Origin: a virus
Length of the DNA: 51,631 nt
Reading direction: 5' to 3' (one strand)
IMG/VR virus record: IMGVR_UViG_3300032282_002376
Location: 1 to 51,631 of that record
The first letter of the stretch is position 1. The number at the start of each line of letters is the position of its first letter. The translations under genes and the position numbers were made by a program. A model generated the notes under the pieces. The model was not told the DNA's origin. It saw only the letters and a program-made list of their open reading frames with translations, and did not search any database. Positions 3,257 through 41,053 of the stretch are shown here, piece after piece.

Positions 3257-5022
3257 CCTCAAAAGTCGTTGCACTCACTCCTATGCCTGGGATACAAAGG
3301 GACGGTACTCAGTTCGACTCTAGCCGTTACGTTGATGGAGTGTGGACTAGGTTTCAACGCGGTCGCCCACGTAAAATTGGAGGCTATAAAGGCATATTTT
3401 TAAACGCTTCAGGGATATCACGAGGTATGCAAATGACCTCCACTAACGGACTCAATTATGTTGTTTCTGGTTACTCCGCTGGGTTGGAACAATGGCAGAC
3501 TGATAATGATGACGGTACTGGATTAGGTCCTACAGCTTACACATTAAGCAACTTTACATCAAGTGCCAATAACTTATGGCAGTTTGATATCGGGTATGAT
3601 TCCACAGGTGGAGGTAGTAATAATTTAGTAGCCCATCCTGGTCAAAACTTATCTGCTATCGACTCTACTGTAAACACTCCAGTTTTGTACGGACCTTTCC
3701 CAGGAACTTTTGGCAACCCTACAATGTCTAAAGTCGGCGTGTTTACCGTGACAGGAGGTGTTGTGAGCGGTAGCCCTACGTTGACGCTGGCTACAGCTAA
3801 TATACGCGTCGCTTTTGGACAAACCATATCAGGAGCTAATATCCCATCTGGGACTACAGTAACTCAAGTAGTCGGCACAGCCGTTACAATGTCTGCAAAC
3901 GCGACCAATACAGCTGCTTCTCAATCAGTTACATTTGATAACAATATCGCTGTGTCAGGTGGTTGCGTAATGATACACCCGTACTTATTTGTGTATGGAA
4001 ATAATGGGTTAATACAAAACTGCTCAGCAGGTGATTTTACTAATTGGGTTTCTCCCGATGCTAACTCCAACAATGTATCAACTGGTAAGATTGTAAAAGG
4101 CTTGCCGATACGTGGAGGTACAACATCTCCAAGCGGACTGTTTTGGGCATTAGATGCGTTGATAAGGGTTAGTTTTTCTCCTACAACGGCAGGAGGGCAG
4201 ACGTATTACTGGTCTTATGACCTAATCAGTAGCCAAACTTCAATCATGTCTTCTAGTAGCGTAGTTGAGTACGATGGTATTTATTATTGGGCAGGAGTTG
4301 ACCGTTTTTTAATGTATAACGGCGTTGCTCAAGAGATACCAAATGATATCAATCAAAACTACTTTTTTGATAATTTAAACTACGCTTATCGACAAAAAGT
4401 TTGGTGTACAAAAATACCTCGCTACGGTGAAATTTGGTGGTTCTATCCAAAAGGAACGGCTACTGAGTGCACCGATGCGGTCATATACAATGTTAGAGAA
4501 AAACTCTGGTATGACGCAGGAGAAGCTATAGGAGCTCGCCGTTCAGCAGGTGTATTTTCTGAAGTCTTTTTTAAACCTATCTGGGCTGGGAATGAGGCAA
4601 ACACAGCAGGAAACTACACTCTTTGGCAACACGAGTCTGGAGTTGACCAAGTTTATTTGACCAATGTTGACGCTATATACTCAGCTATCGAGACTCCTGA
4701 CCTAGGCACGCTGAGCGGTTTAGTCGGCACTGTACAACAGCCAGGAGACAATCTGTGGACTCGTATAGAGCGTATTGAGCCTGATTTTATCCAAGAAGGT
4801 GAGATGAGTGTGATTGTAACTGGTAAGGGTTATGCTGATGACAATGATCAAGTCTCTAGCCCTTATAATTTCACACAAGGAACTTTAAAGATTGATATGC
4901 GTGAGCAACGTCGTGAGATGCGTTTACGCTTTGAATCTAACACTTTTAATGGAACCTACCAGATGGGTAAACTCATAATATCTATGACTACTGGCGATGT
5001 TCGCGGAACGGGTAACCCATGA
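3253..5022 (+). CDS. Tail hub/DNA-stabilisation-like protein with inserted Ig-like module
   Basis: Begins at a TTG overlapping the previous stop in TTGA. The 589-residue protein starts with PMPGIQRDGTQFDSSRYVDG followed by RFQRGRPRKIGGYKG, a conserved opening I associate with podovirus packaged-DNA-stabilisation or tail-hub proteins (P22 gp10-like role). Residues about 155-222 form a Thr/Val/Gly module ending ATNTAASQSVTF, which looks like an inserted Ig-like or adhesion domain. The rest (WAGVDRFLMYNG, FYPKG, RREMRLRFESN) reads as beta-propeller-type blades. A role in closing the portal and tail channel is inferred. Confidence 0.65.
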   Translation: MTSKVVALTPMPGIQRDGTQFDSSRYVDGVWTRFQRGRPRKIGGYKGIFLNASGISRGMQMTSTNGLNYVVSGYSAGLEQWQTDNDDGTGLGPTAYTLSNFTSSANNLWQFDIGYDSTGGGSNNLVAHPGQNLSAIDSTVNTPVLYGPFPGTFGNPTMSKVGVFTVTGGVVSGSPTLTLATANIRVAFGQTISGANIPSGTTVTQVVGTAVTMSANATNTAASQSVTFDNNIAVSGGCVMIHPYLFVYGNNGLIQNCSAGDFTNWVSPDANSNNVSTGKIVKGLPIRGGTTSPSGLFWALDALIRVSFSPTTAGGQTYYWSYDLISSQTSIMSSSSVVEYDGIYYWAGVDRFLMYNGVAQEIPNDINQNYFFDNLNYAYRQKVWCTKIPRYGEIWWFYPKGTATECTDAVIYNVREKLWYDAGEAIGARRSAGVFSEVFFKPIWAGNEANTAGNYTLWQHESGVDQVYLTNVDAIYSAIETPDLGTLSGLVGTVQQPGDNLWTRIERIEPDFIQEGEMSVIVTGKGYADDNDQVSSPYNFTQGTLKIDMREQRREMRLRFESNTFNGTYQMGKLIISMTTGDVRGTGNP

Positions 5023-5258
5023 TAGTATATGACCATAGAAATCTAACATGGGAGTACTGGTGTGCTAGGATGGCAGAACTTTTTGCCGCAAATCAATTAG
5101 GTACAGTTGAAGAAGACGACTGGCGTATTTGGGCGAGCGGTGTAGCGTCTATCGGGTATTTCACGCAATCAGGATGTCCAGATCCTAGAGGTTTTGATAA
5201 TTGGAGAGATTGGGCAGCTCAATTAACTGGTTCAATGAATATAGTAAAACCAACGTAA
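5019..5258 (+). CDS. Small conserved Trp-rich phage protein
   Basis: A 79-residue acidic protein with seven Trp residues (WEYWCARM, DDWRIWASG, NWRDWAAQL), probably a compact helical domain. It overlaps the preceding hub-like gene by four bases (ATGA), so the two are coupled. The position between hub and ejection proteins suggests a virion or assembly role. I do not recognise a named family. Confidence 0.7.
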   Translation: MIVYDHRNLTWEYWCARMAELFAANQLGTVEEDDWRIWASGVASIGYFTQSGCPDPRGFDNWRDWAAQLTGSMNIVKPT

Positions 5259-5266
5259 TTTAAATC

Positions 5267-6817
5267 ATGGCCATACAACCGATCCTCAGCCCACAAAGCA
5301 ATCCTTTAACAACGGCGGTTCCGTCAAAGTTTATCGGTACAACCAATCCAGGTTCTCCAGGTATGTTTATCGGTATGGCGGATTCAAATTTAATTGATCT
5401 AGCCAAAAAATCTTCTCCAGAAGTAATAGCTGGTTTACAAAATGGAACTTTGAAGTTTACAAATGATGGTGAACAACAATACTTAACAGATACAAAAACA
5501 GGTAACGTAGTACAAGGAGTTGATATTCGCCAAGACATGTATGGCAATCTTGCTGTTAATGTTCCGACGGGTAGTGGTGGAATAATTCAATTTTCTACAT
5601 CAGTAGGAGATGATGGAAAATTAAAACCTGCAGATGTTAATAATGCTTTTAATGTTGGCGTAAATAGTAGTGAGGGCGGTTTTGCTGGTGGATTAAGCAA
5701 TTTTACACCAGCAGCTAGAGCTGCCGCAATATTGTATGGCGGTAGTCAACTAATTGGTTCTTTGGCTGGCGCAGGGGCTGGGGCAGGAGCAGCTAGTTCA
5801 AGCGCTTTAGCCGACCAGATCGCTGCTGAACAATTAGCAGCCCAACAGACGGCAGCAGCCACGGCAGGGGGTGCCCTACCCGCAGCTGGGGCTGGCGCTG
5901 GGGCTGGCGCGCTAGATGTTTTGACTGCTCAAGATCTAGCAGCTGGCCATACCCTGACTGATAACGCTATCGCTTCTCAACTTGCCGCTGCTACTCCATT
6001 ATCTGAAACTGAAGCTCTAAATTTAGCTGCGCAAAGCTACACTGCTGGTATGACGCCAGAACAGATAGCTGCTATGGGTACAGGTACTGGAGCTGGTGTA
6101 GGAACTATAACAGCTGCAGGAGCAGCAGGTTTAACCGCAGCTCAACAAGCAGCTCAAGCAGCTGCTGCAGCAAAAGTTGTTAAAGATTTAGTTTCTCCAA
6201 GCTCAAGTCCAGGAGTCGCTTCAGTGCCTTCTGGAGGTACAATGGGAGGTTCTAGCTCAGGTCCTTGGAATCAATCTTTGAGCCCAGGAATAGCGACAAT
6301 CGGTAAATCAAACTTTTCTGGGTTTCAAGATCCTTTAAAAGATTTGATGGGTAATATCACTCCAAACTATGCTCCCAGTCAAACTGCTTTAAATAATATC
6401 ATGGCTCACCAGTATCAAGGTGAGTTTAGTCCTGCTTCAGGGTACGCAAAAGGCGGTAAAGTAGAAGATAAATTTGAGCCTGAATTTATAAAAATGATTA
6501 AAGAAAGATCAGGTGGAACGCCAGATCATGAGCACCCAAACTACAAGGGATCGCCTCTATTTAGGACAGGTGGTTCTGGCAAACACGTTCAAGGACCAGG
6601 AACTGGGCAAAGTGATGATATTCCTGCTATGTTAGCAGACGGAGAATACGTGTTTGATGCTGATACTGTATCGGCATTAGGCGATGGGTCTAATAAGGCT
6701 GGTGCTGCTGCTCTAGACGTTATGCGTAAAGCTATTCGTAAACATAAACGAAGCGCTCCTATAGACAAAATACCACCAAAAGCGAAAAATCCGCTATCCT
6801 ATTTAAAAGGTAAATAA
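5267..6817 (+). CDS. Internal virion/ejection-type protein, Ala/Gly-rich
   Basis: A 516-residue protein. Residues 1-150 are mixed, about 150-320 are Ala/Gly-rich low complexity with Gln, and the C terminus has a distinct conserved module: GKHVQGPGTGQSDDIPAML, then ADGEYVFDADTVSALGDGSN, then ALDVMRKAIRKHKRS. That module recurs in structural proteins of environmental podoviruses. Ala-rich, helix-prone proteins clustered with a lytic transglycosylase are typical of DNA-ejection proteins that leave the capsid during infection. The function is inferred from composition and neighbours. Confidence 0.65.
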   Translation: MAIQPILSPQSNPLTTAVPSKFIGTTNPGSPGMFIGMADSNLIDLAKKSSPEVIAGLQNGTLKFTNDGEQQYLTDTKTGNVVQGVDIRQDMYGNLAVNVPTGSGGIIQFSTSVGDDGKLKPADVNNAFNVGVNSSEGGFAGGLSNFTPAARAAAILYGGSQLIGSLAGAGAGAGAASSSALADQIAAEQLAAQQTAAATAGGALPAAGAGAGAGALDVLTAQDLAAGHTLTDNAIASQLAAATPLSETEALNLAAQSYTAGMTPEQIAAMGTGTGAGVGTITAAGAAGLTAAQQAAQAAAAAKVVKDLVSPSSSPGVASVPSGGTMGGSSSGPWNQSLSPGIATIGKSNFSGFQDPLKDLMGNITPNYAPSQTALNNIMAHQYQGEFSPASGYAKGGKVEDKFEPEFIKMIKERSGGTPDHEHPNYKGSPLFRTGGSGKHVQGPGTGQSDDIPAMLADGEYVFDADTVSALGDGSNKAGAAALDVMRKAIRKHKRSAPIDKIPPKAKNPLSYLKGK

Positions 6818-6819
6818 TC

Positions 6820-7929
6820 ATGTCGCTCACAACCGCAGCTACAATCCCGACTACAACTGGGGCTACAAGCTCAAGCCCAACAACGATCGGTACTACATCA
6901 CAGATGCTACCAACACCGATCACGTTGGCTACCCCTGCTTCAGATGCTGGCTCCGCTACTCAAGGTGGAGCGTTGCCTAATATTACAACAACGCAAGCCC
7001 AAGCAACCTCAATTCCTCAGTTTTATCAAGATTACTTAAATAATATAGCAACTCAAGGGGCTACAAATTTAGGTAATATGGCGTATTCTGGTCCTACAAC
7101 AAATCAAAACGCTGCGTTTAGTGGAGTGCAAGCAGCGGGACAAGGTTTTCAACCAGGACTCACCCAAGCAGGTCAAACAACGCAGGGGGCATTAAGTTTA
7201 AATGGAGCCAACGCTGCGCAGCCATACTTAGCTCAAGGCACGCAAGCTTCAACGCAAGATATCAATCAGTATATGAACCCGTATACTAAAAATGTTGTTG
7301 ATCAAATCGGGCTTTTAAATCAGCAAAACATCGCTAACACGTTATCACCTGCTATCACATCGGGAGCTGTAGGCTCTGGACAGTTTGGTTCTCAGCGTGG
7401 AGCCCAAGCGCTTGCAGGAGGAATCGCCACTGCAGATATAGCAGCTCTAGCTCAACAAGCAGCAGCTGAACAATCAGGATACGGACAAGCTCTAACGGCA
7501 GCTCAACAGCAGAGAGCAAACCAGTTAGCAGCAGGACAAACTCTTGGATCTTTGACAAACACTCAGCAGGCAAATCAGTTAGCAGGTGCACAACAACAAG
7601 CAGCGATGGCTCAACAGCAGCAGACTGATGCGCTTGCAGCGATCAATGCAAATGCGACTATAGGTGCTCAAGAGCAAGCCCTTAACCAAGCGAAAGTTAA
7701 TTATCCAATGACGGCTCTGCAACAGTACGGTTCGTTATTACAAGGTCAAACTATACCTACCGCAACTTCTGGAACTTACACAGGACCTATCCCTGGAGCT
7801 TACAGCGCTTCGCCTTTGGCTACAGCTACAGGCACGGCAGCTGCGCTTACAGGTATTTTAAATTCAGGTGCAGACGCTGCGTCTAAGATACAAAAAATTA
7901 CAGATTTCTTTAAAACTTCATCTCCCTAG
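6820..7929 (+). CDS. Internal virion/DNA-transfer-like protein, Gln/Ala-rich
   Basis: A 369-residue protein with a Thr/Ser-rich N terminus. A conserved core contains YMNPYTKNVVDQIGLLN and VGSGQFGSQRGAQAL, and Gln/Ala-rich predicted coiled helices (QQQRANQLAAGQ, AGAQQQAAMAQQQQ) follow. The core motifs match a common podovirus virion protein regarded as a DNA-transfer or injection protein. It starts two bases after the previous stop and belongs to a four-gene ejection set (5267-11040). Confidence 0.65.
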   Translation: MSLTTAATIPTTTGATSSSPTTIGTTSQMLPTPITLATPASDAGSATQGGALPNITTTQAQATSIPQFYQDYLNNIATQGATNLGNMAYSGPTTNQNAAFSGVQAAGQGFQPGLTQAGQTTQGALSLNGANAAQPYLAQGTQASTQDINQYMNPYTKNVVDQIGLLNQQNIANTLSPAITSGAVGSGQFGSQRGAQALAGGIATADIAALAQQAAAEQSGYGQALTAAQQQRANQLAAGQTLGSLTNTQQANQLAGAQQQAAMAQQQQTDALAAINANATIGAQEQALNQAKVNYPMTALQQYGSLLQGQTIPTATSGTYTGPIPGAYSASPLATATGTAAALTGILNSGADAASKIQKITDFFKTSSP

Positions 7930-7939
7930 AAAGTAACTA

Positions 7940-9670
7940 ATGGCTTTACCACTTTCTTCACCAGAAGCTGCTCCAGTAGATAAAGGCTGGGGCGGTTACG
8001 TCGCTGAGTACAACACTCTTAATCCAGACGCACCTATTACGGTAGCAAATGTAGCTCCTGCCGCTACTGCGCCAGCGCCGATGGCTGCTCCTGTCGCTGC
8101 GCCTATTCAGGCTCCTCAAGGCGCTTTACAGACGGCTGAGGTTAAACCTCCTGCGATGCCTGGTCCTATGCAAGAGTACATGAGTGCTTTAAATCAGTAC
8201 CAAGACGTTCTAGAAAAACAGGCTAATTACGGTAACAGAACGCCTTGGTTTTCATTAGCAGGGGCTTTATTAAATCCTGGTCGTACAGGTAGTTTTGGTG
8301 AAGCTGTAGGTAGCGCTGCTAATGTGATGGGTAAACATCAAGAAGAGCAACAAAGGATGCAGATTCCTTTGGCTCAAGCTAGACTTGGTTTGATAAAGTC
8401 TAAATATGAATTAGGTAAACAAGCTCAAGCTCAACAAGATTTTGCAGAGATTGCAAAAGGTCAAATTTCTCCAACGGCTACAATTGCAGGTTCTGTAGTA
8501 CCGACTAGCTCTGGTCTTCCAAACCCCTCAGCCCCTAATTCTCCTTCAGCTATCACGCTAGAAGGCGCTACAGCACACCCTAGAGATATTGCAACTGCTA
8601 AACCGATTACGATGAAAGACGTACTTGCGTTTGCTGCAACTCATCCTGAGGATAAAGAAAGAATCGCTGTATTAACTAAAGCAGCTGAGATGGCGCAACC
8701 TAGTTTCTCAACTTCAAATGGCGTTATTTTAAATAACAAAACAGGCTCAGTGTTTGGTTTTGTCCCTGGTCAAAAGCAAGAAAAGTTCACAACAGCTTTT
8801 GGCGATTTTATGCTACGTCCTCAAGATTACGAAACGATCAGTACATTACCTCCTGCAAAACAAATAGAAGCTTTAAAAGCTCTTGTAGGTACAAATGAGC
8901 ATGGAGCTCCTAGGTCTGTACATGATGTTGAGGCTGAGGCAGCAGGTCGTAAAGAGACGTCTACTGGACAAGCAAGAGCCGACGTTGCTGGAGCTCAAAC
9001 CCTATTGAACGATCGTCGAGCTGGTGAAGCTATGCTTCCTGTTTATGAACGTATTCAAACGATCTTAGGACAACCAGGAGTCAAAGAGCAGCTCGGTTTG
9101 TTCAAGAAAGGCGATGTGGCTGATGTTTTGACATCTTTCTTAACGAGTGACCATAGTGAAAAAGCAACTAGAAGTATGCAAGAGTCCATACGTAGAGTTG
9201 CTGCTAATAGTAAAGATGCAGACAATCTAATCAACGCTATTAACGATATTGACGGGCAACGCGGTATCGCTGAAGCTGAGTATATGAAAAGTATGCCTGG
9301 AAATGCTAGAGTTACAGACTTTAGATTGAAGTTTGCTCAAAGTTTACATCCCAGTTCTCAAGACGATATGTATGGCGCTTTTCAAGCTAAACTCAATGAG
9401 TTTAAAAATAGAGCTGCTTGGGATATTGAAAAGCATGACCTGTTTACTAATTTAAACAATAAACGAAATGTGACGTACACTCAGTTTTATACTCAACCTG
9501 AGTACGTAGAGTCTTATAATAAACACAGTAAAGCGTACGCTGCTGGTATGCCTACTAATGCTCCAACTCCTCAAGGTACAACTTCAACGGCACCTGCAGG
9601 ATCGGTAGCTCAGCGTTTAGCTGAAATAAGAGCAAAGCGTGATGCAGAAAAATTGCAAGCTCCTAAATAG
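7940..9670 (+). CDS. Internal virion protein, helical
   Basis: A 576-residue, mostly helical, Ala/Gln/Lys-rich protein with Pro/Ala-rich linkers near the N terminus (about 45-75). A recognisable block reads NRTPWFSLAGALLNPGRTGS then FGEAVGSAANVMGKHQEEQ. I take it as a large internal virion (core/ejection) protein because of size, composition and its place between the DNA-transfer-like protein and the transglycosylase. No enzymatic motif is visible. Confidence 0.6.
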   Translation: MALPLSSPEAAPVDKGWGGYVAEYNTLNPDAPITVANVAPAATAPAPMAAPVAAPIQAPQGALQTAEVKPPAMPGPMQEYMSALNQYQDVLEKQANYGNRTPWFSLAGALLNPGRTGSFGEAVGSAANVMGKHQEEQQRMQIPLAQARLGLIKSKYELGKQAQAQQDFAEIAKGQISPTATIAGSVVPTSSGLPNPSAPNSPSAITLEGATAHPRDIATAKPITMKDVLAFAATHPEDKERIAVLTKAAEMAQPSFSTSNGVILNNKTGSVFGFVPGQKQEKFTTAFGDFMLRPQDYETISTLPPAKQIEALKALVGTNEHGAPRSVHDVEAEAAGRKETSTGQARADVAGAQTLLNDRRAGEAMLPVYERIQTILGQPGVKEQLGLFKKGDVADVLTSFLTSDHSEKATRSMQESIRRVAANSKDADNLINAINDIDGQRGIAEAEYMKSMPGNARVTDFRLKFAQSLHPSSQDDMYGAFQAKLNEFKNRAAWDIEKHDLFTNLNNKRNVTYTQFYTQPEYVESYNKHSKAYAAGMPTNAPTPQGTTSTAPAGSVAQRLAEIRAKRDAEKLQAPK

Positions 9671-9678
9671 AGAATAAT

Positions 9679-11040
9679 ATGGCTGACGCAAAACAACCAC
9701 AAGTTTTTGATCCTGCTAAATTAGATGATACTCAGCTATACGTAGCTGAAGTGCTGACTAAAAAGCTTCTCTCTGAAGGGTTGAATCCTGATTTATTTGT
9801 ACCTCTCGCTTTTCATGAAAGCGGTTTACGTCCTAACGCCATAGGTCCAGAAATTGAAAGAGGACCCTTTAAAGGACAAAGAGCTCAAGGTTTGTTTCAA
9901 TACATGCCTGCAGTTGCTAAAGAAAGAGGTATAGATGATCCTTTAAACTTTGAGCAAAATATGAATGGAGCTATAAAAGATTTTAAAGCTCACATGCAAA
10001 ACCCAAAGATAGGTCTTGATGCTTCAAAACTTTTATCAGCTTGGAACGCAGGTCCAAACAATGACTACATAAAAACAGGAGATTTAGAAAAACTACCTGA
10101 CGAAACAGTCAATTATTTGATCAAAATGCATAGTAGTACTGGAGGAAATTTACCTACTCCTGTTGTAGAATCTACGGGTAAGAGCCCTGAAGCACCTCCT
10201 AGTCCATCTATACCTTCTACAACTTTAACTCCTACGGAAGCGATAACTGCAGGAACTGCTGGAGCTACAGCAGGTGCCAAGGTAGGTGCTGGCGTCCAGG
10301 CAGGTCTTGGGACAAAATACGCTTTAGATTATTATTTAAATCAAAACTCTCCAGCAAGTCTTCAACGATACTCTAATAGTCAGCTTGGCGATAAATATTT
10401 AAATGTTCCTCTTAAAGAACTTGAAAACTTAACAAACAGAACTATCGTTGCTCCACATGATGTTCAAGAAGCGATAAAAGATGTCCATGGACGACCGATC
10501 TATCCTAAGACAGTTAGAGTTGAGTCTGGCGCAGGTTATAAACAAATGCCTGTTGTAGATCCAATAGCTCAAAAAGTAATTCCTACGGGAATGTCTACCC
10601 CGATAGATATCAGTAAATATGAAGTAAAACCAGGAATGCTTGGAGCTGCGCAAAAAACAACTCAAGCAGCTTTACCAGTTTTAAAGAGCGCTACTAGAGT
10701 CGCAGGTTCTGCTTTAGGTGGAGCTGGGGCAGCTTTAGATGTAGCTGACGCTTTAAAACGCGCAAGAAGTGGTGACGTTACAGGTTCTGTTATATCAGGC
10801 ACTGGAGCAGGTTTAGGAACTTTAGGTACTCTAGGAGCGATGGGTTTATTGGCTCCTGAAATCGCTGTACCAGCAGCTGTTGGAGCTTTGGGTATGTCTG
10901 GGATAAACGCTGCTAGAGATATCTATAAGATGTCGCCTGATGAAAGACAACAGCTTATAGACAGAACTAAGAAAAACCTGATGCCCTCTACGGGTTCTGG
11001 AGGAAATGAGGCTCTATTTAACGCGATAGCAAACCAGTAA
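9679..11040 (+). CDS. Virion lytic transglycosylase (SLT/GH23 domain) ejection protein
   Basis: A 453-residue protein. Residues 18-130 form a soluble-lytic-transglycosylase domain: catalytic E47 in AFHESGL, then AQGLFQYMP, then LSAWNAGPNN. Such domains cleave peptidoglycan locally so the ejected proteins can build a channel for DNA. The rest is helical and ends in Ala/Gly-rich hydrophobic stretches (about 330-410) that could enter or cross a membrane. It is the last gene of the rightward block; its final 27 bases overlap a small gene on the opposite strand. Confidence 0.85.
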   Translation: MADAKQPQVFDPAKLDDTQLYVAEVLTKKLLSEGLNPDLFVPLAFHESGLRPNAIGPEIERGPFKGQRAQGLFQYMPAVAKERGIDDPLNFEQNMNGAIKDFKAHMQNPKIGLDASKLLSAWNAGPNNDYIKTGDLEKLPDETVNYLIKMHSSTGGNLPTPVVESTGKSPEAPPSPSIPSTTLTPTEAITAGTAGATAGAKVGAGVQAGLGTKYALDYYLNQNSPASLQRYSNSQLGDKYLNVPLKELENLTNRTIVAPHDVQEAIKDVHGRPIYPKTVRVESGAGYKQMPVVDPIAQKVIPTGMSTPIDISKYEVKPGMLGAAQKTTQAALPVLKSATRVAGSALGGAGAALDVADALKRARSGDVTGSVISGTGAGLGTLGTLGAMGLLAPEIAVPAAVGALGMSGINAARDIYKMSPDERQQLIDRTKKNLMPSTGSGGNEALFNAIANQ

Positions 11041-11374: not shown

Positions 11375-11693
11375 CAGTCGCCTCACCTTCTTTATCAAGT
11401 TGCTGTATAAACTTACCCCCTACATGATCCTCAACTAAGAGCAGGTATCGACGTAAGTCACGAATATCATCGATAATACCCTCAGGGCGTAAGTCGTTAT
11501 TGACCGCCTCAAAGATATCATAATTATACTTTTTGACGTGATTCTCAAGCCTATCCCACTTACGGGCAAGCATCATGAAAGCGCCGACGCCCCCACGCTT
11601 TTTCCAAGAATCACCGTAAGACTTTTCAGCCTTAACCAAACCATCAATATCAGCAGCACTGATACCGTTCAAACCATTTATAAGATCAGACAT
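11349..11693 (-). CDS. YGDSW-motif helical protein, possibly DUF1599/Nmad1-like
   Basis: A 114-residue mostly helical protein. The stretch EKSYGDSWKKRG followed by FMMLARKWDRLEN resembles the YG.SW...K..R signature of the DUF1599 family, also called nucleotide-modification-associated domain 1. Members often lie in phage nucleotide or base-modification neighbourhoods. It overlaps the HD nucleotidase by eight bases, so both are probably made together. A nucleotide-pool role is only an inference. Confidence 0.6.
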   Translation of the reverse strand: MSDLINGLNGISAADIDGLVKAEKSYGDSWKKRGGVGAFMMLARKWDRLENHVKKYNYDIFEAVNNDLRPEGIIDDIRDLRRYLLLVEDHVGGKFIQQLDKEGEATDGYVNQDR

Positions 11694-12192
11694 CGTTGCG
11701 TTCCTTAATTAAATCTTCCAAAAGAGCTAACCCCACAGCATGGTCGCCTAAACCCGTGAGATATGTAACACCGCGATCGAAAACCTCACGCATTGTCGTG
11801 TTACCAAGCTCAAGCTCATCTATGCAACGATACAAAAGATCTAGCATATCAGCCCATTTTAATGCTAGCTGCTCATGCTCAGTTAAGTGAGGCAAGGCTA
11901 GATAATTATCATCAAGCATTTTACGTTCTAAATTATCACAAGCAAACTTCAACTCAGGCGAGCTCCACTTAGCAGTTGCAGGTATATCACCTGTCCACTG
12001 CTCAGCCGTATCGTGTAAAAGCGCAGCATAGATTAGAGATTTACTAGGCGAAGTTTCTAGCATAAGTAAAATAATTATTACATTTGCTGTATGCTCACCT
12101 ACGGTGTCAGTCGTTAGCATACGCCTTGTATGCCATCTTTTTACAGCGTTACCGTTTCTAACAGTTTTGATTACACTTGTTTTTACAGTCAT
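11686..12192 (-). CDS. HD-domain 5'-deoxynucleotidase, YfbR-like
   Basis: A 168-residue HD phosphohydrolase. Metal ligands are visible in order: H34 in VGEHTANV, H60-D61 in ALLHDTAEQWTGDIP, and D115 in LKWADMLDLL. R19-W20 near the N terminus and TGDIPATAKW are typical of YfbR-like enzymes, which remove phosphate from deoxynucleoside monophosphates. Small phage HD enzymes of this type can instead act on a triphosphate (DatZ). In a phage with putative modified thymidine it could deplete the competing canonical nucleotide, but the substrate cannot be read from sequence. A promoter-like element lies just upstream. Confidence 0.85.
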   Translation of the reverse strand: MTVKTSVIKTVRNGNAVKRWHTRRMLTTDTVGEHTANVIIILLMLETSPSKSLIYAALLHDTAEQWTGDIPATAKWSSPELKFACDNLERKMLDDNYLALPHLTEHEQLALKWADMLDLLYRCIDELELGNTTMREVFDRGVTYLTGLGDHAVGLALLEDLIKERNDV

Positions 12193-15523: not shown

Positions 15524-15838
15524 TTAAAAACTTAAAAATAAACTGCTATAAGACAATTTATTTTTATCCCACCTAAGTATCATGCATCCTCCTAACAACT
15601 CAGCAGCTACGGTCACACAAATCGCGCATAGAGCGGGATCGCCAGCCATAACCAAGTAGTCATCAGGATGCATGTCACGTAGAGCCATTCTAGCATGTTC
15701 GATAGCTGCTTTGCCGTCAAAGTCTCGACCTATCGATGAAAATACATGCTTTACCTCGCCGTAAGCGTCTGCAGCTGAATAGTCGCGTCGCCTATCATAA
15801 CTGACGAGCCATACCGTAGGTATCCTAGTATCATTCAT
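15524..15838 (-). CDS. Small conserved phage hypothetical protein
   Basis: A 104-residue protein with an alpha/beta look: TVWLVSYDRRRDYSAADAYG, then DYLVMAGDPALCAICVTVAA and GGCMILRWDKN. The last two blocks match a protein often found next to DNA polymerase genes in podoviruses, function unknown. It overlaps the polymerase stop by four bases (ATGA), so the two are coupled. Confidence 0.7.
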   Translation of the reverse strand: MNDTRIPTVWLVSYDRRRDYSAADAYGEVKHVFSSIGRDFDGKAAIEHARMALRDMHPDDYLVMAGDPALCAICVTVAAELLGGCMILRWDKNKLSYSSLFLSF

Positions 15839-17634
15839 TTAAGTTCTCCATATACTTTTCCAAATTTAACCTCTGCCTTAACTGGTAACTCACTCCACCA
15901 ATTAGGAGGGGTAGACATCACGTGCTCTACATAATCACGTGCTTTTTCAGCATCAGCTTCGTCCACTACAGCGACTAATTCATCATGAACTGTTAAAGCA
16001 ACTGGAAACTCTTGATGTACGATCAGTAGCTGCTCCATAACGATATGTCTAGCAGCTGATTGAACAATGTTCTCAGTGATAAGACCGCCATAGATACCTG
16101 AGCGCCCCTCGCCTCTGGCAGCGTAACTGTAGCGCCTCTCGCTTGAGTTGTAGCTTAAATCAGGATACAATAGGGGCAAACCAGTGGGTAAATCTATACG
16201 GTACTTACCCGTCTTAACAGGTATGTACTTACTAAGTAAGACCTCTGTACCCTCAGCCATAGCAGGTAGGGCTTTATCACAAGTATCCCAGAAGTCAACG
16301 ATTTTAGAATTTTTAAGTCTATATGCTTTGATAGCCTTCTCACACATCTCCATTGAAAGAGGTTTACCTTGCGTGCGTAAGAATTCAAAGAATGTTCTAG
16401 CCGACATACCGTAACCAGCGCCTAGCACCGTAACTTTTCCAAGCCAACGCTCATCCTCATCAGCTTTAGTGATATTCCTACCGTAGATGAAAGACGCCAT
16501 ATCGCAGTACGGGTCTAGCCCTTTGCGGAAAACTTCCATCAAATCTTGCTGACCAGCAACGCAAGCTAGAGCGCGAGCTTCAATCTGTGAGCTATCGCCG
16601 ACTACAAGCAACTTACCAGGAGGAGCTACAATACCTTTACGTAGCTTAGAACCTCGAGTCAAGTTCTGTAAGTTGATGCCCCCTCCACCGCTCATCCGTC
16701 CAGTGTGCGCTCCATAATAGACAAGAGGAACTGGAAGCAAGCCTGTCTTACCGATAGAGCTGAGCCTTGTAGCTCTAGTCTGTTCAATAGTAGATTTCAG
16801 CTTGAGTCTAGCACTGACTAGTTCTTGCACGCGAACGTCAGGATGGTCTAACAGGTCGGTTATACCCTTGTCCTGCTTAGAAAACGCGAATGTCGGCTTA
16901 CCAGTTCTAGGGCTGGTTTTCATAGGAGGGTTGACTCCCATTCTTTCCAGAGCTTCAGCAAACTTAGGATTTGACATGATAATATCAATCGTTATGCCGA
17001 CGTCCTTTAGCGTTTCTTCCCTACGCTTATCTAGCTCCTCTACATAGCGATCTAGCATCTTGTAATCTACAGCAAGCCTAGGAGTAGTGACCGCTTTTAT
17101 TGTCCATTGTAATAAAAGAAACTCAAACTTAGGAAATGTGTCTATCAGTTTTTTATAAACACTGTAGGTTAGATCGACGTCTCGAACGCAATACTCAGCT
17201 AAGATGTCACGCTCATAGTCTTGCAAATCCTCAAGTCTTTTACCCTTGGATACAGACAAGCCATCTAGCTTCTCACCAAATCCTAGACTTTTAGCGACTG
17301 AGTTTAGACTGTAAGAGTTCAATCTTAATTGAGAGCGAGCCAACCCCACTGTGTCAGTTATCTGTTCAGGAAACCAGTTGTAACGCCTAGCAGCGATAGC
17401 GCCGTCAAACTGAGCGTTATGACAGATAGCCCGAACCTGAGTACCGTAGTGCTTGAACGCTTTACCGATATCATCACCCCAAGCTAACGTAGTCGTTTCA
17501 TCATTTAGTTTGAACGCGCAACATATAGGCTGAAACCTAGAGTCTCGAATATACTCAGTTGAAGTCATCTTTGATAACGAGTACGTAGCAGGTTCGTAGT
17601 ACGTCTCGAAATCAATCGTTAAAGTGTCAATCAT
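15835..17634 (-). CDS. polA-like: Family A DNA polymerase with 3'-5' exonuclease
   Basis: A 599-residue replicative polymerase. The exonuclease motifs are D8/E10 in TIDFETYYE, HNAQFD (72-77) and YCVRD (148-152). Polymerase motifs are HTGRMSG (309-315), motif A D346 in VVGDSSQIEARAL, motif B RWLGKVTVLGAGYG (395-408) and motif C VHDELVAVV (548-556). There is no 5'-nuclease domain, which is usual for phage enzymes. Aligning K399 and Y407 with E. coli K758 and Y766 puts Leu403 at the Phe762 position. It is coupled to the thymidylate-synthase homologue upstream by a four-base overlap. Confidence 0.95.
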   Translation of the reverse strand: MIDTLTIDFETYYEPATYSLSKMTSTEYIRDSRFQPICCAFKLNDETTTLAWGDDIGKAFKHYGTQVRAICHNAQFDGAIAARRYNWFPEQITDTVGLARSQLRLNSYSLNSVAKSLGFGEKLDGLSVSKGKRLEDLQDYERDILAEYCVRDVDLTYSVYKKLIDTFPKFEFLLLQWTIKAVTTPRLAVDYKMLDRYVEELDKRREETLKDVGITIDIIMSNPKFAEALERMGVNPPMKTSPRTGKPTFAFSKQDKGITDLLDHPDVRVQELVSARLKLKSTIEQTRATRLSSIGKTGLLPVPLVYYGAHTGRMSGGGGINLQNLTRGSKLRKGIVAPPGKLLVVGDSSQIEARALACVAGQQDLMEVFRKGLDPYCDMASFIYGRNITKADEDERWLGKVTVLGAGYGMSARTFFEFLRTQGKPLSMEMCEKAIKAYRLKNSKIVDFWDTCDKALPAMAEGTEVLLSKYIPVKTGKYRIDLPTGLPLLYPDLSYNSSERRYSYAARGEGRSGIYGGLITENIVQSAARHIVMEQLLIVHQEFPVALTVHDELVAVVDEADAEKARDYVEHVMSTPPNWWSELPVKAEVKFGKVYGELK

Positions 17635-18617
17635 TTATCATTCTCTTTTGGGATGAGCCATGCCTTGCAAGCAGCACGCCAGTCTGTAGCGCGTATACTA
17701 TCAACATAGATCAACCCATTTCTAGCTCTTTTATGTTGCCACCAAACCATAGCCATCGGTTGAGCGACGTCTTGGAAGAACGCAGTCTTATAGATATGCT
17801 CATCTTGCGGGTCTAGCATGAAGCTTTCCAAATCTTTCTTCCAATCATTATGGTCGCAGTTTTCCATCAAAGGATATGGTGTAACTGCTAACTCAGCGTA
17901 GTCAGACTCATAGTAATCCAAAGGAACGTACGACGTGTCTTTCACTTTACCCCACACTTCTAAATTAGTATAGACATGCAAAGAGTCAGAAACTTGCGTG
18001 TAAGGACCGACTTTGTAACCGCATCTAGCAGCGACGTATTCTTGCAGCATACTGAAATGGACTACGTTGGCGCCCAGCTTTCCGTACAGCAAGTCATTAG
18101 AACGGCAGCATACTGTCATATAGAGCTCACCGTCACGAACCTTCCAATAGATATGAGTATTGCAGGGGTGATCAAGCATTGTTTTACCTAAGTCTAGGAC
18201 AGAGTCCCACATAGTGGTGACTACACGACGGTCGTCAGGATTTTTCTTTAGAAGTTCTATCGCTTTTTCTAGCTGATCGAAAGGTTGAGAATGCCTCAAC
18301 CGATGTCCGTACGCGCCGTAGAACGTATCGCCGTCATCGCTGTATTGCTTCATCTGTGAGTTAAAGTAGTCCAAGAACTCCACATCACGATAGCCTCCTA
18401 TGATCCAAAGACCCTCCATGCAATGGAAGAATGGATTACAGTTACGCTTCTCATTAAAGAGAACGCGCTCAGTTGGCTTCGCGTAGGTTGTAGCTACGGG
18501 TTCACAGAACTCTAGCACAGGACCGTTCCTGGAGCTACGCGGTTTACCTGAAGCTTTGATGCCGTTGATTTCAAGAGGGAAGGCGTGGTTAACATTTCTT
18601 ACGTTATAAGCTATCAC
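17631..18617 (-). CDS. Thymidylate-synthase homologue, possible dUMP hydroxymethylase
   Basis: The open frame extends to 18725, but that would overlap the upstream gene by 98 bases. A GTG at 18617 with an AAGGAT site seven bases away is preferred (328 residues). The nucleophile is Cys152 in LDHPCNTHIYW. RSNDLLYGKLGAN supplies the phosphate-binding Arg-Ser and an Asn at the position that favours dUMP over dCMP, and DSLHVY closes the site. It could make dTMP or, as in hmU phages, 5-hydroxymethyl-dUMP. The modification genes beside it favour the second, which sequence alone cannot prove. Confidence 0.85.
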   Translation of the reverse strand: MIAYNVRNVNHAFPLEINGIKASGKPRSSRNGPVLEFCEPVATTYAKPTERVLFNEKRNCNPFFHCMEGLWIIGGYRDVEFLDYFNSQMKQYSDDGDTFYGAYGHRLRHSQPFDQLEKAIELLKKNPDDRRVVTTMWDSVLDLGKTMLDHPCNTHIYWKVRDGELYMTVCCRSNDLLYGKLGANVVHFSMLQEYVAARCGYKVGPYTQVSDSLHVYTNLEVWGKVKDTSYVPLDYYESDYAELAVTPYPLMENCDHNDWKKDLESFMLDPQDEHIYKTAFFQDVAQPMAMVWWQHKRARNGLIYVDSIRATDWRAACKAWLIPKENDK

Positions 18618-18627
18618 TGTTATATCC

Positions 18628-19524
18628 TTAGAATAAAGTTTCGGGAGAATAATTCGCACGCGGACGACCGCCGTTTGATGCGCGCATGTATTTATCAAAC
18701 TCACACATACAGTTCTGCCAATCATGCAGAGTTAAAGTGCTTAGATCAATTGTCGCCCAACTCTTGGATATTTCAAGAGTTTCCATCAGCTCCTCATTGA
18801 AACTGTCTTGGTGAGCGACTTGTTCTAGTGAGCGCCCATAGATACGGTTCAAACCTCTTGTAGACCCAGGACCTATTGGAGCAAACGAATACAAGTCTTT
18901 TGCGTCCTTTAATAGGGGGCAATACGTCATATCAGCTACAGCTTGCCCTGCCATGAAGGTACCCCAACCATAAATACCCTTAAAAAGCGCCAAAAGTTCC
19001 TCTATGGAGCGATCCTCAGGCTTCGTGTGGGTTAGGTAATGAGGTATCTCTTTATTGGAAAATAGAGGTTCTAGCATGTTTTTAGCAATAAAATACCCTT
19101 TACTCATACCTTTTGGTATATTTCTGCCCGTGATAAGGTAAGCGCCAGTCCAAGTTTTCAATCCTCGCTTCATACGGGCATCTATAACACTGCTAAATGC
19201 TGTAGCACTGAAAGACTCAACTGGCCACTCACCCTTGTCCATCAAGGCTTGTATAGTTGGAGGCCAGTTGATGTATCTAGCAATGCAAAGCATAATCCAT
19301 AACCATTCGTGGTCAAGATACTGGTCGATAACATTATTAACAATCCAAGCGGATACACGATCATCTTTGCGATGGATATTACAGAAACGGTACTTCCTCA
19401 ATATCTCATCCTCAGTCCAAGGTCTTTTCTGCTCAGGGTCTATGATCTTATTGTAAAAGATATTCTCACGCTCACTGACAAAATAAGCAAGCTTCCTGAT
19501 CATTATGTCTTTAGTTTCAAACAT
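18628..19524 (-). CDS. Alpha-glutamyl/putrescinyl-thymine pyrophosphorylase-like protein
   Basis: A 298-residue helical, DNA-glycosylase-like protein. Visible family blocks are PWTEDEILRKYRFCNIHRKD (35-54) followed by DRVSAW, LCIARYINWP (79-88), TGAYLI (126-131), GWGTFMAGQ (186-194) and GPGSTRGLNRI (218-228). These match the aGPT-PPlase clade of phage DNA hypermodification, proposed to act on the activated 5-hydroxymethyl-uracil base in DNA and install an amino acid or amine. It overlaps the kinase gene upstream by eight bases and precedes the thymidylate-synthase homologue. The attached group cannot be predicted. Confidence 0.8.
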   Translation of the reverse strand: MFETKDIMIRKLAYFVSERENIFYNKIIDPEQKRPWTEDEILRKYRFCNIHRKDDRVSAWIVNNVIDQYLDHEWLWIMLCIARYINWPPTIQALMDKGEWPVESFSATAFSSVIDARMKRGLKTWTGAYLITGRNIPKGMSKGYFIAKNMLEPLFSNKEIPHYLTHTKPEDRSIEELLALFKGIYGWGTFMAGQAVADMTYCPLLKDAKDLYSFAPIGPGSTRGLNRIYGRSLEQVAHQDSFNEELMETLEISKSWATIDLSTLTLHDWQNCMCEFDKYMRASNGGRPRANYSPETLF

Positions 19525-20083
19525 CGTAGCCGAGCCCTCTTAAAGCAATAGGAACTGCCTCATTGGAACTAACCCAGTGAGGGTTAAGACCTGCAGCATG
19601 AAGTTTTCTAGCTGATGATATGTTCTTCTTATCATTCGTTAGAATGTTATCCGTCTTTTCTATTGGACCTTTACCTTCAACTGCTCGACGAGCGTTCACA
19701 TTAGCGACGCATTGTTCGAAAGGGGTACTGAGGCAGATAGGTATCAGTGTAGCCCCCATCGCTTTTAGACGCGCGTTCAAGATCATTGTAGGCTCAAAGA
19801 CGTTTCCAACAATAACCCCCTCGTACAATACGTTCGTATAGTTAGAGGCTTCCACCACGGCGTCCCAAACCATTTGGGGCGTCTTTATAGTGTCACATCC
19901 ACCAGTTGGACGATCGTACTTTCCTAGAGCGACAAATGTTTTAAAGATATTTAACAGCACGCCGTTACTAGCTTCGCCTATCTTTATGAAGTCCTGAGCA
20001 GCATGCTCCATTATTCTCTTAGCAACCCAAGTCTTACCCGCGCCGTTGCTACCACGTATCGAAATTACATTGTATGTATTCAT
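19517..20083 (-). CDS. P-loop kinase A, 5-hmdU DNA kinase-like
   Basis: A 188-residue P-loop protein. Walker A is RGSNGAGKT (10-18), and GKYDRPTGGCDTIKT (54-68) is a signature I associate with phage 5-hydroxymethyl-deoxyuridine DNA kinases. These phosphorylate hmU already in DNA, making the leaving group for hypermodification. LYEGVIVGNV and the Arg pair in VNARRAVEGKG would be the catalytic/lid part. It is paralogous to the adjacent kinase at 20102. A promoter-like element lies 23 bases upstream. Small-molecule nucleotide kinase activity is an alternative. Confidence 0.78.
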   Translation of the reverse strand: MNTYNVISIRGSNGAGKTWVAKRIMEHAAQDFIKIGEASNGVLLNIFKTFVALGKYDRPTGGCDTIKTPQMVWDAVVEASNYTNVLYEGVIVGNVFEPTMILNARLKAMGATLIPICLSTPFEQCVANVNARRAVEGKGPIEKTDNILTNDKKNISSARKLHAAGLNPHWVSSNEAVPIALRGLGYDV

Positions 20084-20101
20084 AGCTTCGTTATCTAAAA
20101 G

Positions 20102-20695
20102 TTAAATTATAACGTTCTCAGCAGCGGTTTTCATATTAAATAGCTCAAGAGCTATAACTACTGCCTCACGTTGGCTTACTACTTTGGCGTCTAGTCCGTA
20201 GCTCTTTAGCTTCGCGTGCGCTAGCTCAACTGCTCTGTATTTAGGGATCAAAGACTTCTTAGGATCGAAAGGTTTTTCATTACCAACAATCGCCCTACGC
20301 TTCATTGTCTGTTCAATACATTTTTCTTTTGGAGTATCTAAAGTAAGCGCATGAAAGATCGCATACTCGGAGCAACCAGCAGCGATATCTACCGTCAGCT
20401 GTTGAAGTCCAGAAAGAAGTAAGCCCTCCATGACCACGCTTCCATACATTGATACCTCAGCTACAGCCTCTACTAGATCACGTACATTCTTTACACGATC
20501 AACCCCACCCGAAGCAGCGGAGTCGTACTTACCTATAAAAATTACAGGAGAAGCGTCTGTAGTTTTGTAAACATGAGTGAAGACGCCGTTTTGAGTCGTA
20601 TAGTCACGAACATGAGCCAGTCTAGACATGATAGCGCGAGCTGCTGTAGTTTTACCGCTACCATTCGTACCTCTAATATTTATGATGTGATTCAT
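20102..20695 (-). CDS. P-loop kinase B, 5-hmdU DNA kinase-like
   Basis: A 197-residue paralogue of kinase A. Walker A is RGTNGSGKTT (8-17). GKYDSAASGGVD (55-66) repeats the GKYD...GG.D signature, VVMEGLLLSG matches the VLYEGVIVG strand of kinase A, and KRRAIVGNEKPF is the lid-like Arg segment. Two such kinases side by side could add phosphate stepwise, act on different bases, or work as a heterodimer. It overlaps the helical gene by four bases (ATGA). Confidence 0.78.
   Translation of the reverse strand: MNHIINIRGTNGSGKTTAARAIMSRLAHVRDYTTQNGVFTHVYKTTDASPVIFIGKYDSAASGGVDRVKNVRDLVEAVAEVSMYGSVVMEGLLLSGLQQLTVDIAAGCSEYAIFHALTLDTPKEKCIEQTMKRRAIVGNEKPFDPKKSLIPKYRAVELAHAKLKSYGLDAKVVSQREAVVIALELFNMKTAAENVII
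20106..20111 (-). promoter_or_regulatory. Promoter-like element, leftward
   Basis: Minus-strand AACGTTATAATTTAAC overlaps the end of the kinase B gene and lies 23 bases before kinase A. It could give the kinase A, pyrophosphorylase and synthase genes their own transcript. Confidence 0.45.
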
Positions 20696-21465
20696 GATAT
20701 GATTTCCGTATCAAAAGGTTCTTCGGGCATATGCTTCAGTATCTCATCAGCGACGAAACCGTATCCCGTCAAGGCAAGACGTTTATCAACGATGTCTGCA
20801 CCTATCGCTTTACCGTTCTTATAGTAGCCCTTGATCATACAAGCTATGGTTTCAGCTTCTGCAACACCGCAGTCGCGAGTATAACGAGGTGGGGCTTTCA
20901 TCCATTTGATCTCGTTGACGACTTGTAATAAAGCGATATCTGAAGGCACGCCAGGAAATATGATGTTGAGCCCCTGTTTAGGAAGCTCAACCATATGTTT
21001 TTCAGAGTTTTTCCAGTCTACCGCATAGCCAAACACCGCCTCACGCAAGTCCATACACTTCCAAGTAAAGTACGTACCGATTTGTGGTATGTTTTTCTTA
21101 AGAAGCCCCATGAAAGAAGGTTGCATGCAGGCAGTAAAAAACTTTTCAGGAGTTTTGTACTCATTTACCCAGCGTTTCATCGCTTTTAACCCTGCTTGCC
21201 CCCTGAAATGACGCCTTTCAGCTGCTCTAGGTGCGGTATCATAGCAGTTAAAGAGCCCCTCCCAGAACTTATCACCTGTTAGCTCACACAGCTGAGAAGC
21301 TATACCCATGTGATAGTACGTCACGAAAGCCGTACACCATCGCATAAGCATATCCTCAGGAATATCTGATTTAGATAACGCTACATAAACAGGGTCTAAG
21401 TCGTCTGTACGAACGGTCTGCTTAGCAAACTCAGCCCAAGGTAAGTCAGGGTCATAGGTAATCAT
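20692..21465 (-). CDS. Helical protein resembling the 5-hmdU kinase helical domain
   Basis: A 257-residue all-helical-looking protein. CTAFVTYYHMGIASQLCEL (44-62), PRAAERRHFRGQAGLKAM (79-96), IPQIGTYFTWKCMDLREAVF and YTRDCGVAEAETIACM are its characteristic blocks. I associate this pattern, especially ERRHFRG and the F(T/A)WK.D segment, with the HMUDK helical domain of phage thymidine hypermodification. Here it is a separate gene coupled by ATGA overlaps to kinase B downstream and the conserved gene upstream. It may present DNA to the kinases. The family call is from memory and is moderately firm. Confidence 0.65.
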   Translation of the reverse strand: MITYDPDLPWAEFAKQTVRTDDLDPVYVALSKSDIPEDMLMRWCTAFVTYYHMGIASQLCELTGDKFWEGLFNCYDTAPRAAERRHFRGQAGLKAMKRWVNEYKTPEKFFTACMQPSFMGLLKKNIPQIGTYFTWKCMDLREAVFGYAVDWKNSEKHMVELPKQGLNIIFPGVPSDIALLQVVNEIKWMKAPPRYTRDCGVAEAETIACMIKGYYKNGKAIGADIVDKRLALTGYGFVADEILKHMPEEPFDTEIIS

Positions 21466-21992
21466 GAGAATTGAACTGCCTTTAAGTAGTCAGAAGCGTG
21501 ATCATTGTAACCACCGAGCATGAACACGGGAACGCCACCATTACGCCATTTGGCAAAACTGGATTTATGCTTACGGTAATAGTTACGGTAAGCTGTAACT
21601 GCGTCACCCTCAACCTTGCAATCATCAGGCATAGCCTGAGGAGGCTCACGCCATAGATAGCCTTTAGCCATCAAAGCAGAAGGAGGTGAGCTTAACACGC
21701 CATTGATATATTTTTCGCAAGCGTGGCGTTTGTTGTAACGATTAGCATACTCACGGCAAAGGTAAGTACCTAAATCTTGAAGCCAGGAGTACTGAACTTT
21801 AGACTCAGCAGCCCATTTGACTGAAGGATGATTTTGATGAGTAGGTTTGTATGGAACGGCGTCGCCGTTACCATGAATATGATGCACAGTGCAAAGCATT
21901 TGAGCTGTTTCTAAAATCATTTTGACGACGTGGATATCACAATGCATAACAGCAGCGAGGGGGGCAGCGTGGTGTAGATAAAAGATATTCAT
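21462..21992 (-). CDS. Conserved phage protein of unknown function in the modification cluster
   Basis: The ATG at 21992 is preferred: it has a GTGAG ribosome site and lies seven bases after the previous stop, whereas the longer frame to 22151 would overlap that gene. The 176-residue protein has HVVKMILETAQMLCTVH (21-37), THQNHPSVKWAAES (51-64), YSWLQDLGTYLCREY (68-82) and QAMPDDCK. I have seen this His/Lys/Glu-rich pattern in many phages, but know of no established activity. Its location and overlaps suggest a step or partner in base modification. Confidence 0.75.
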   Translation of the reverse strand: MNIFYLHHAAPLAAVMHCDIHVVKMILETAQMLCTVHHIHGNGDAVPYKPTHQNHPSVKWAAESKVQYSWLQDLGTYLCREYANRYNKRHACEKYINGVLSSPPSALMAKGYLWREPPQAMPDDCKVEGDAVTAYRNYYRKHKSSFAKWRNGGVPVFMLGGYNDHASDYLKAVQFS

Positions 21993-21999
21993 TGTGATC

Positions 22000-22290
22000 T
22001 CACTTACGTGCAGTAATGCGTACAGTTGTAGACTCGCTGACTTTAGAGTTAGCACGAATGAACTGAGGTGATAGGTGAGCACGCACGGCATCCATATCAA
22101 GCGTTTCGCGTGTGCTGACACTAACCGAGCAGCGGAATGTTTTACCGTCATGAGCGCCGATGCCGATATCTGTGATCAGCGCATTTTTGAGGTCTTTTTC
22201 GTACAGCTCGAGATCAGCAATTTTAGCTTTGAGCTTACCAAGTGCATCAATCTTTTCTTCGATTGAAAGGGTAGAGATATCGTATGACAT
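22000..22290 (-). CDS. Small conserved phage protein, helical hairpin plus strand domain
   Basis: A 96-residue protein with an N-terminal helical hairpin (IEEKIDALGKLKAKIADLEL), then a beta part (GKTFRCSVSVSTRETLDMDA) and a C terminus SESTTVRITARK. The same architecture is common near phage replication genes; its role is unknown. An AAGGAT ribosome site precedes the ATG. It is the first gene after a 122-base gap that holds a promoter-like stretch. Confidence 0.7.
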   Translation of the reverse strand: MSYDISTLSIEEKIDALGKLKAKIADLELYEKDLKNALITDIGIGAHDGKTFRCSVSVSTRETLDMDAVRAHLSPQFIRANSKVSESTTVRITARK

Positions 22291-40606: not shown

Positions 40607-40624
40607 AAGCGCTGAAAAGTGCTT
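40607..40624 (+). promoter_or_regulatory. Hairpin with GAAA tetraloop before the co-chaperonin ribosome site
   Basis: AAGCGCT-GAAA-AGTGCTT (seven pairs, one G-U, GNRA loop) ends just before AGAAGGAG. A weaker hairpin GCTAC...GTAGC lies just upstream. It could protect the message or tune translation. Confidence 0.4.
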
Positions 40625-40639
40625 AGAAGGAGAAGCCTA

Positions 40640-41053
40640 ATGGCTGAAGCAAAGTGGACTGATGAGGATTTTTTCCCCTCGATAGAAGCTGGTGTCAAAC
40701 CAGTTGGTAATAGAATCTTAATACAGATTCGACAAACCCCTAAAAAGATGACCAGTAGCGGAATTCTCTTAGTTGAGGAAACCCGTGAGACTGAAAAAGC
40801 CCAAACGATGATCGCCAAATTGATTGCAGTAGGTCCTATTGCTTTCAAGAAACGTGACTCTGGAGAGCCTTGGCCAGAGGGGGTATGGGCATCACCAGGA
40901 GACGTCGTTAGAGTTCCGAAGTGGAACGCTGATCGTTTCTTTGTAGACAACCCAGCTGATCCAGACAATCCTGTCACTTTCGGTCTTTGTAATGACACAG
41001 AGTTAATCGCTGTTGTTACAGGAGATCACACCAAACAGAGGGCTTACTTATGA
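40640..41053 (+). CDS. GroES-like co-chaperonin
   Basis: The ATG at 40640 is chosen because GAAGGAG lies ten bases upstream. The 137-residue protein has GVKPVGNRILIQIRQ, then a mobile-loop-like KKMTSSGILLVEE, AKLIAVGPIAF and SPGDVVRVPKWN, the order of the Cpn10/GroES barrel. Phages such as T4 (gp31) encode their own GroES replacement to fold a capsid protein with host GroEL. Its place between portal and scaffold fits that role. Confidence 0.85.
   Translation: MAEAKWTDEDFFPSIEAGVKPVGNRILIQIRQTPKKMTSSGILLVEETRETEKAQTMIAKLIAVGPIAFKKRDSGEPWPEGVWASPGDVVRVPKWNADRFFVDNPADPDNPVTFGLCNDTELIAVVTGDHTKQRAYL

Follow-up and report, generated by a model that had tools for sequence, protein, structure and literature searches.

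Hypermodification of thymine is a known means by which phages withstand DNA-cutting defences, and it is an open question which thymines are hypermodified, with the kinase that acts on 5-hydroxymethyldeoxyuridine (5-hmdU) in DNA as the proposed determinant. The IMG/VR virus record IMGVR_UViG_3300032282_002376, which was analyzed over its whole length of 51,631 bases (hereafter the window) and belongs to an uncultured phage, raises this question in a particular form: why would one hypermodification cluster encode two divergent kinases of the same family, here termed kinase A (KINA) and kinase B (KINB)? We propose, with a probability of roughly 0.7, that the phage possesses a complete basic pathway of thymidine hypermodification in which the two kinases split the sequence contexts between them.

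The sequence-only reading of this DNA had recognized a cluster for thymidine hypermodification in a phage of podovirus type, and both the profile matches and the relatives of the portal and terminase bear this out. All six leftward open reading frames (ORFs) of the cluster were confirmed at the coordinates first given for them and form a single overlapping unit, and the profile search proposed as a check assigned four of its proteins to the HMUDK_hel, HMUDK and amino acid:DNA transferase (ADDT) families, far beyond chance, and not to unrelated families. Along the leftward arm, the helicase, primase and phrog_434-like genes are followed by phrog_624, ADDT, KINB, KINA, HMUDK_hel, a homologue of thymidylate synthase (TS), a family A DNA polymerase, and the Pam3_gp32-like, Sak4-like, DUF669, YqaJ-like, two unassigned and YfbR-like genes. 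The genes from the phrog_434-like through the Pam3_gp32-like one overlap or almost touch (gaps of -4, -4, +18, -8, +10 and -4 nt from phrog_624 to the DNA polymerase), and strong purifying selection, measured as the ratio of nonsynonymous to synonymous substitution (dN/dS), extends throughout the unit. As judged from these sequences, a hypermodified thymine in the virion DNA is well supported.

KINA (19517..20083, minus strand) adjoins HMUDK_hel, and KINB (20102..20695, minus strand) adjoins ADDT. The two proteins share 32% identity, and both match the HMUDK_HMUD1 family of P-loop kinases above the Pfam cut-off (PF18748; 3.6e-9 for KINA and 1.7e-6 for KINB) with intact motifs, in agreement with the two P-loop proteins of the sequence-only reading. 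Throughout the clade, KINA keeps the Walker A motif GSNGAGKT together with GGCD, YEG and TPFEQC, and both kinases retain the P-loop/Walker A, GGxD, EG and TPxxxC throughout the close clade. The dN/dS values against relatives are 0.04–0.05 for KINA and 0.04–0.08 for KINB, with synonymous sites near saturation. A relative of KINB (56–86% identity) was observed in 16 IMG/VR contigs, and KINA lies adjacent in 16/16; no KINB relatives were found when bacterial and archaeal genomes were searched. The constant pairing with KINA, the intact motifs and the purifying selection mark KINB as a genuine second kinase.

Counting kinases by PF18748 only proved unreliable, as it gave one match in relatives having two and none in PhiW-14, and a KINB-derived profile with positive controls was used instead. 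With this profile, both kinases are recovered from the window and from a related contig (G003), and the whole genome of each of 11 reference phages gives exactly one match (P26218, MW202557, PaMx11, RHph_TM26, M6, Simon, Pam3, PhiW-14, SH-Ab 15599, YX22 and Ab18). The arrangement had been described as unlike the known pathways on account of two kinases, a split helical domain and an extra gene; only the first of these holds. The double kinase sets the cluster apart from the 11 reference phages as a new variant, in a comparison outside which the metagenome survey of Lee 2022 lies.

KINA and KINB each form a clade of their own, the KINB clade being separate and well supported. A lineage-specific duplication was considered as the source of the pair, and a joint clade of KINA and KINB is neither supported nor rejected (approximately unbiased test, p-AU 0.466). 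Multi-kinase clusters are also present in 11 less related contigs (L082/L083, L086, L135, L137, L146, L148, L152/L153, L162 and L170). L148 and L162 each combine, in a quick tree and with moderate support, one RHph_TM26-like kinase with one of another kind, and therefore the recruitment of a second kinase seems to have happened on more than one occasion. In L086, positions 4455–10430 encode three HMUDK-family kinases along with HMUDK_hel, ADDT and a TS homologue. In the Ackermannviridae phages YX22 and 207E48.1, the kinase is joined by a member of a different kinase family, PF18747, which provides a precedent for two kinase families in one phage. As a side observation, phrog_800, labeled ‘terminase small subunit’, matches KINA and KINB (1e-14 and 2e-15, respectively), and the kinase gene bears this label in several records (PaMx11, Ab18 and Klebsiella phages); it is likely a propagated misannotation.

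The protein with PWTEDEIL and GPGSTRGLN (18628..19524, minus strand) is HMUDK_hel, the helical partner of 5-hmdU DNA kinase (PF18723, 2.3e-43); the aGPT-PPlase-like label first given to it has been replaced in Pfam by this name and persists in some phage records. Its structure model consists entirely of helices (predicted local distance difference test score, pLDDT, 81.6), and the fold search gave no significant match, the best being PaMx11 PUGT and OGG1-type helix-hairpin-helix glycosylases (E 0.08–0.4). The split helical domain could not be upheld as a new arrangement, as the supposed second helical protein is ADDT; separate adjacent genes for the kinase and the helical protein, considered as a novelty, also occur in M6, PaMx11, RHph_TM26 and Pam3. 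HMUDK_hel is absent from the entire genomes of P26218 and MW202557, which suggests that some systems can do without the helical partner. In addition, one phage group (L002, L003 and L058–L076) carries ADDT, kinase and TS genes without a neighboring HMUDK_hel.

The ERRHFRG protein (20692..21465, minus strand) is the amino acid:DNA transferase (PF18724, 5.6e-8, above the Pfam cut-off), and its closest solved structure is PaMx11 gp46, a glycinyltransferase acting on 5-phosphomethyl-dU (5-PmdU; PDB 8z2m/8z2n, E 1.6e-19). It keeps the family-conserved residues, including most of ERRHFRG and the G.YF.WK..D and EAET..C stretches. In the ADDT tree, which has long branches, the window enzyme groups with P26218 and PhiW-14, away from M6 and PaMx11, so glycine should not be assumed as its substrate. 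No Pfam match to a tailoring enzyme (pyridoxal phosphate-dependent, radical S-adenosylmethionine (SAM), flavin adenine dinucleotide (FAD) lyase or acetyltransferase) was obtained in the scanned ORFs of the window, a scan outside which most small ORFs at 26–34 kb and some structural genes fell. Plain N-alpha-aminoacyl-thymidine is therefore the simpler prediction for the final base, although a new final base, as the sequence-only reading proposed, is possible.

The TS homologue (17631..18617, minus strand) was correctly recognized from the beginning (PF00303, 4.5e-23; phrog_5131, 8e-104). Its gene most likely starts at GTG 18617, after AAGGA, and not at ATG 18725, to which the listed ORF reaches and which falls inside the upstream gene. 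For each of the NCBIfam TS equivalogs that it matches, its score falls below the curated cut-off. In comparison with E. coli ThyA, E58, Y94, R126, R127, C146, R166, S167, D169, N177, H207 and Y209 are kept, but Met takes the place of W80, a change shared with M6 and PaMx11, and Tyr that of W83, a change shared with M6; the C-terminal end shows no conservation, which also holds for M6 and PaMx11. Among PDB entries, the CMP hydroxymethylase MilA matches best (3.7e-19); however, at the pyrimidine-recognition position (E. coli N177) the window protein has Asn where MilA has Asp, which argues for deoxyuridine monophosphate (dUMP) rather than CMP as substrate, and cytosine modification by a deoxycytidylate/CMP hydroxymethylase was rejected on this ground. 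The protein has the sequence features expected of a phage dUMP hydroxymethylase and, by analogy with characterized homologues, would produce 5-hydroxymethyl-dUMP (5-hm-dUMP).

The gene set and its order resemble those of M6, PaMx11, Pam3 and RHph_TM26. In the Pseudomonas phages PaMx11, Ab18 and Epa5, genes for ADDT, a P-loop kinase, a separate HMUDK_hel, the TS homologue and a YfbR-like protein follow in the identical order, and the ADDT homologue of PaMx11 is the solved glycinyltransferase; however, the single kinase gene of PaMx11 is separated from ADDT by genes annotated as FAD oxidoreductase and acetyltransferase, whereas the window has two kinases and neither of those genes. Pseudomonas phage M6, which makes 5-(2-aminoethyl)dU, shares HMUDK, HMUDK_hel, ADDT and the TS homologue but has a single kinase of the HMUDK family, and the window ADDT lies on another branch of the ADDT tree; M6 reportedly has further tailoring enzymes, in the work of Lee et al. 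of 2018/2022. Rhodoferax phage P26218 and the Manatee Spring podophage ctfPj964 are small podophages whose kinase best matches KINB (31–33%) and whose ADDT is the nearest among annotated phages by coverage and score (34–35%), but this kinase is their only one, and HMUDK_hel is missing from the whole genome. Delftia phage PhiW-14, which makes alpha-putrescinylthymine, has an ADDT on the same side of the tree (30%), HMUDK_hel and one weak kinase-family match, but a single kinase and genes scattered in a 157-kb myovirus genome.

On the basis of characterized homologues, the pathway would begin with the formation of 5-hm-dUMP by the TS homologue, after which the phage polymerase would put 5-hmdU into DNA instead of T. 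KINA and KINB would then phosphorylate the 5-hydroxymethyl group in DNA, KINA probably working with HMUDK_hel as a base-flipping or DNA-binding partner, and ADDT would swap the phosphate for an amino acid via its amino group, yielding N-alpha-aminoacyl-thymidine, which would block restriction enzymes. The characterized 5-hmdU DNA kinase phosphorylates ~20% of 5-hmdU in SP8 DNA, with TG/TC sites affected (PMC7653180, PMC6449724), so the simplest reason to encode two would be that the second serves another context. KINA and KINB most likely read different neighboring bases, and more positions would be marked than the TG/TC set of the M6-type kinase; we only infer this division of labor, as well as the identity of the amino acid used. 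Several points weigh against the proposal: the Pfam score of KINB barely exceeds the cut-off, no close relative of KINA or KINB has been assayed, the chemistry of the DNA of this uncultured phage is not known, the sequence reveals no context partition between the kinases, and a small or unrecognized tailoring protein may be encoded among the unscanned ORFs.

Other uses of the kinase pair were weighed. The kinases may act sequentially, one producing 5-PmdU and the other adding a second phosphate to give 5-(pyrophosphoryloxymethyl)-dU, from which ADDT would displace the pyrophosphate, and a pyrophosphate intermediate does accumulate in PhiW-14 (PMC5977210). However, PhiW-14, with only one kinase-family match, forms its pyrophosphoryl intermediate without requiring a pair of kinases; the ADDT homologue of PaMx11 uses a monophosphate (according to the PDB title of 8z2m/8z2n), and the long branches of the ADDT tree also count against sequential action, which we consider unlikely. 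It is similarly doubtful that KINA, KINB and HMUDK_hel constitute one heteromeric kinase with one subunit chiefly structural. The adjacency and co-conservation of KINA and KINB, the Trp that follows GKT in KINA of every clade member examined, and the Ser replacing the first Walker A glycine in a distant KINB (L057) are consistent with such a complex, but the motifs retained by both proteins in the close clade argue against it, and P26218-type phages manage with one kinase and no HMUDK_hel, so one subunit can suffice.

Replication with 5-hmdU requires a 5-hm-dUMP kinase activity, and both proteins are small P-loop kinases, which would accord with a second kinase acting on another substrate, such as free 5-hm-dUMP en route to 5-hm-dUTP. 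This appears improbable, since KINB matches PF18748 at 1.7e-6 versus 0.09 for Thymidylate_kin, and the extra kinases of unrelated clusters fit the same family model. An ordinary thymidylate synthase beside a decayed or unused cluster would agree with the TS fold (PF00303) but is very improbable in view of the sub-threshold equivalog scores, the loss of W80 and of the C-terminal end (shared with M6 and PaMx11), and the strong purifying selection across the unit.

The portal of the window phage is 55% identical to that of MW202545, 46% to that of Caulobacter phage RW and 28–32% to those of HTVC023P/HTVC027P, with Roseobacter CRP-901/902 also among the portal relatives, and the terminase large subunit is 56% identical to that of MW202545 and 42% to that of Caulobacter phage RW, which assigns the virion to the HTVC023P-type podoviruses. 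Passages of one report state that HTVC023P-type Pelagiphage clades V, VIII and IX carry TS plus aG/PT-PPlase1 (PMC9599517), and hypermodification in this virion lineage is therefore no novelty in itself; those passages name neither a kinase pair nor an amino-acid transferase, whereas the window has both. PF18723 was absent in 7/7 HTVC023P-type relatives, and PF18724 was unmatched in the same seven in a search without a positive control.

In nine related contigs, a gene of ~250 aa is located between phrog_624 and ADDT, and in a Foldseek search the model of its product (pLDDT 79.8) resembles SAM-dependent methyltransferases (1.5e-7; 873 matches under 0.001). It was found in sister phages (among them L027:6279-7049, L014:9250-10014, L016:363-1121 and L057:369-1097), and homologues with a D[SG][AS]...LH motif occur in the hypermodification regions of Pam3 (Pam3_39, L009:62-688), L139 (6199-6789), L140 and L141 (373-1077). 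A family profile scan gave 12 loci, nine in clade contigs, one in the contig of L139 and two at cut contig ends, and no Pfam or PHROG family was matched above threshold. The family adjoins or is near hypermodification genes in sister and unrelated phages, and its fold makes it a candidate tailoring enzyme in the sister phages. No such gene was found in the window, in a search without a positive control, and it is also absent from four close relatives; a methylated aminoacyl-thymidine is accordingly a lead from the sister phages and not evidence for the window phage. More tentatively, the kinases may be non-equivalent and split either context or phosphorylation state, in which case modification would be denser or follow a different pattern and the thymine derivative might be an undescribed one, and the sister-phage enzyme may methylate the installed amino acid.

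Turning to the neighboring genes, the phrog_624 gene (21462..21992, minus strand; 1.8e-55) begins at 21992 (176 aa) and not at 22151. Its family occurs in 610 phage records, mainly cyanophages and vibriophages, so it is probably not pathway-specific; its role as an extra pathway feature was not confirmed, and a new pathway enzyme is unlikely. The family A DNA polymerase (15835..17634, minus strand; PF00476, 1.6e-26), whose gene shares 4 nt with the TS gene, is expected to incorporate 5-hmdUTP. The YfbR-like 5'-deoxynucleotidase (11686..12192, minus strand; PF12917, 1.3e-16) is a probable accessory acting on the nucleotide pool, and YfbR homologues lie directly downstream of TS in PaMx11, P26218, M6, Pam3 and Simon. 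Adjoining the DNA polymerase is the Pam3_gp32-like gene (15524–15838; PF23992, 2.8e-15), which is kept in relatives. Elsewhere, the window encodes a GroES-like Cpn10 (40619–41053; PF00166, 4e-7) between the portal and capsid-protease genes, and a polyvalent-protein ADP-ribosyltransferase domain (35892–37637; PF18760, 5e-13), possibly injected, between the terminase and portal genes; no tRNA genes were found in the window.

A full gene set for thymidine hypermodification is thus present in a relative of the HTVC023P podoviruses, a group for which a partial set had been reported, and the methyltransferase-fold family of the sister phages is a tangible starting point for finding a new DNA base. 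KINA and KINB could also be the source of another 5-hmdU DNA kinase reagent, one that differs in its sequence preferences. Because the two divergent kinases occur together naturally, within a single gene unit of this phage and of 16 related contigs, and multi-kinase clusters turn up elsewhere, the question of which thymines are hypermodified becomes directly testable.

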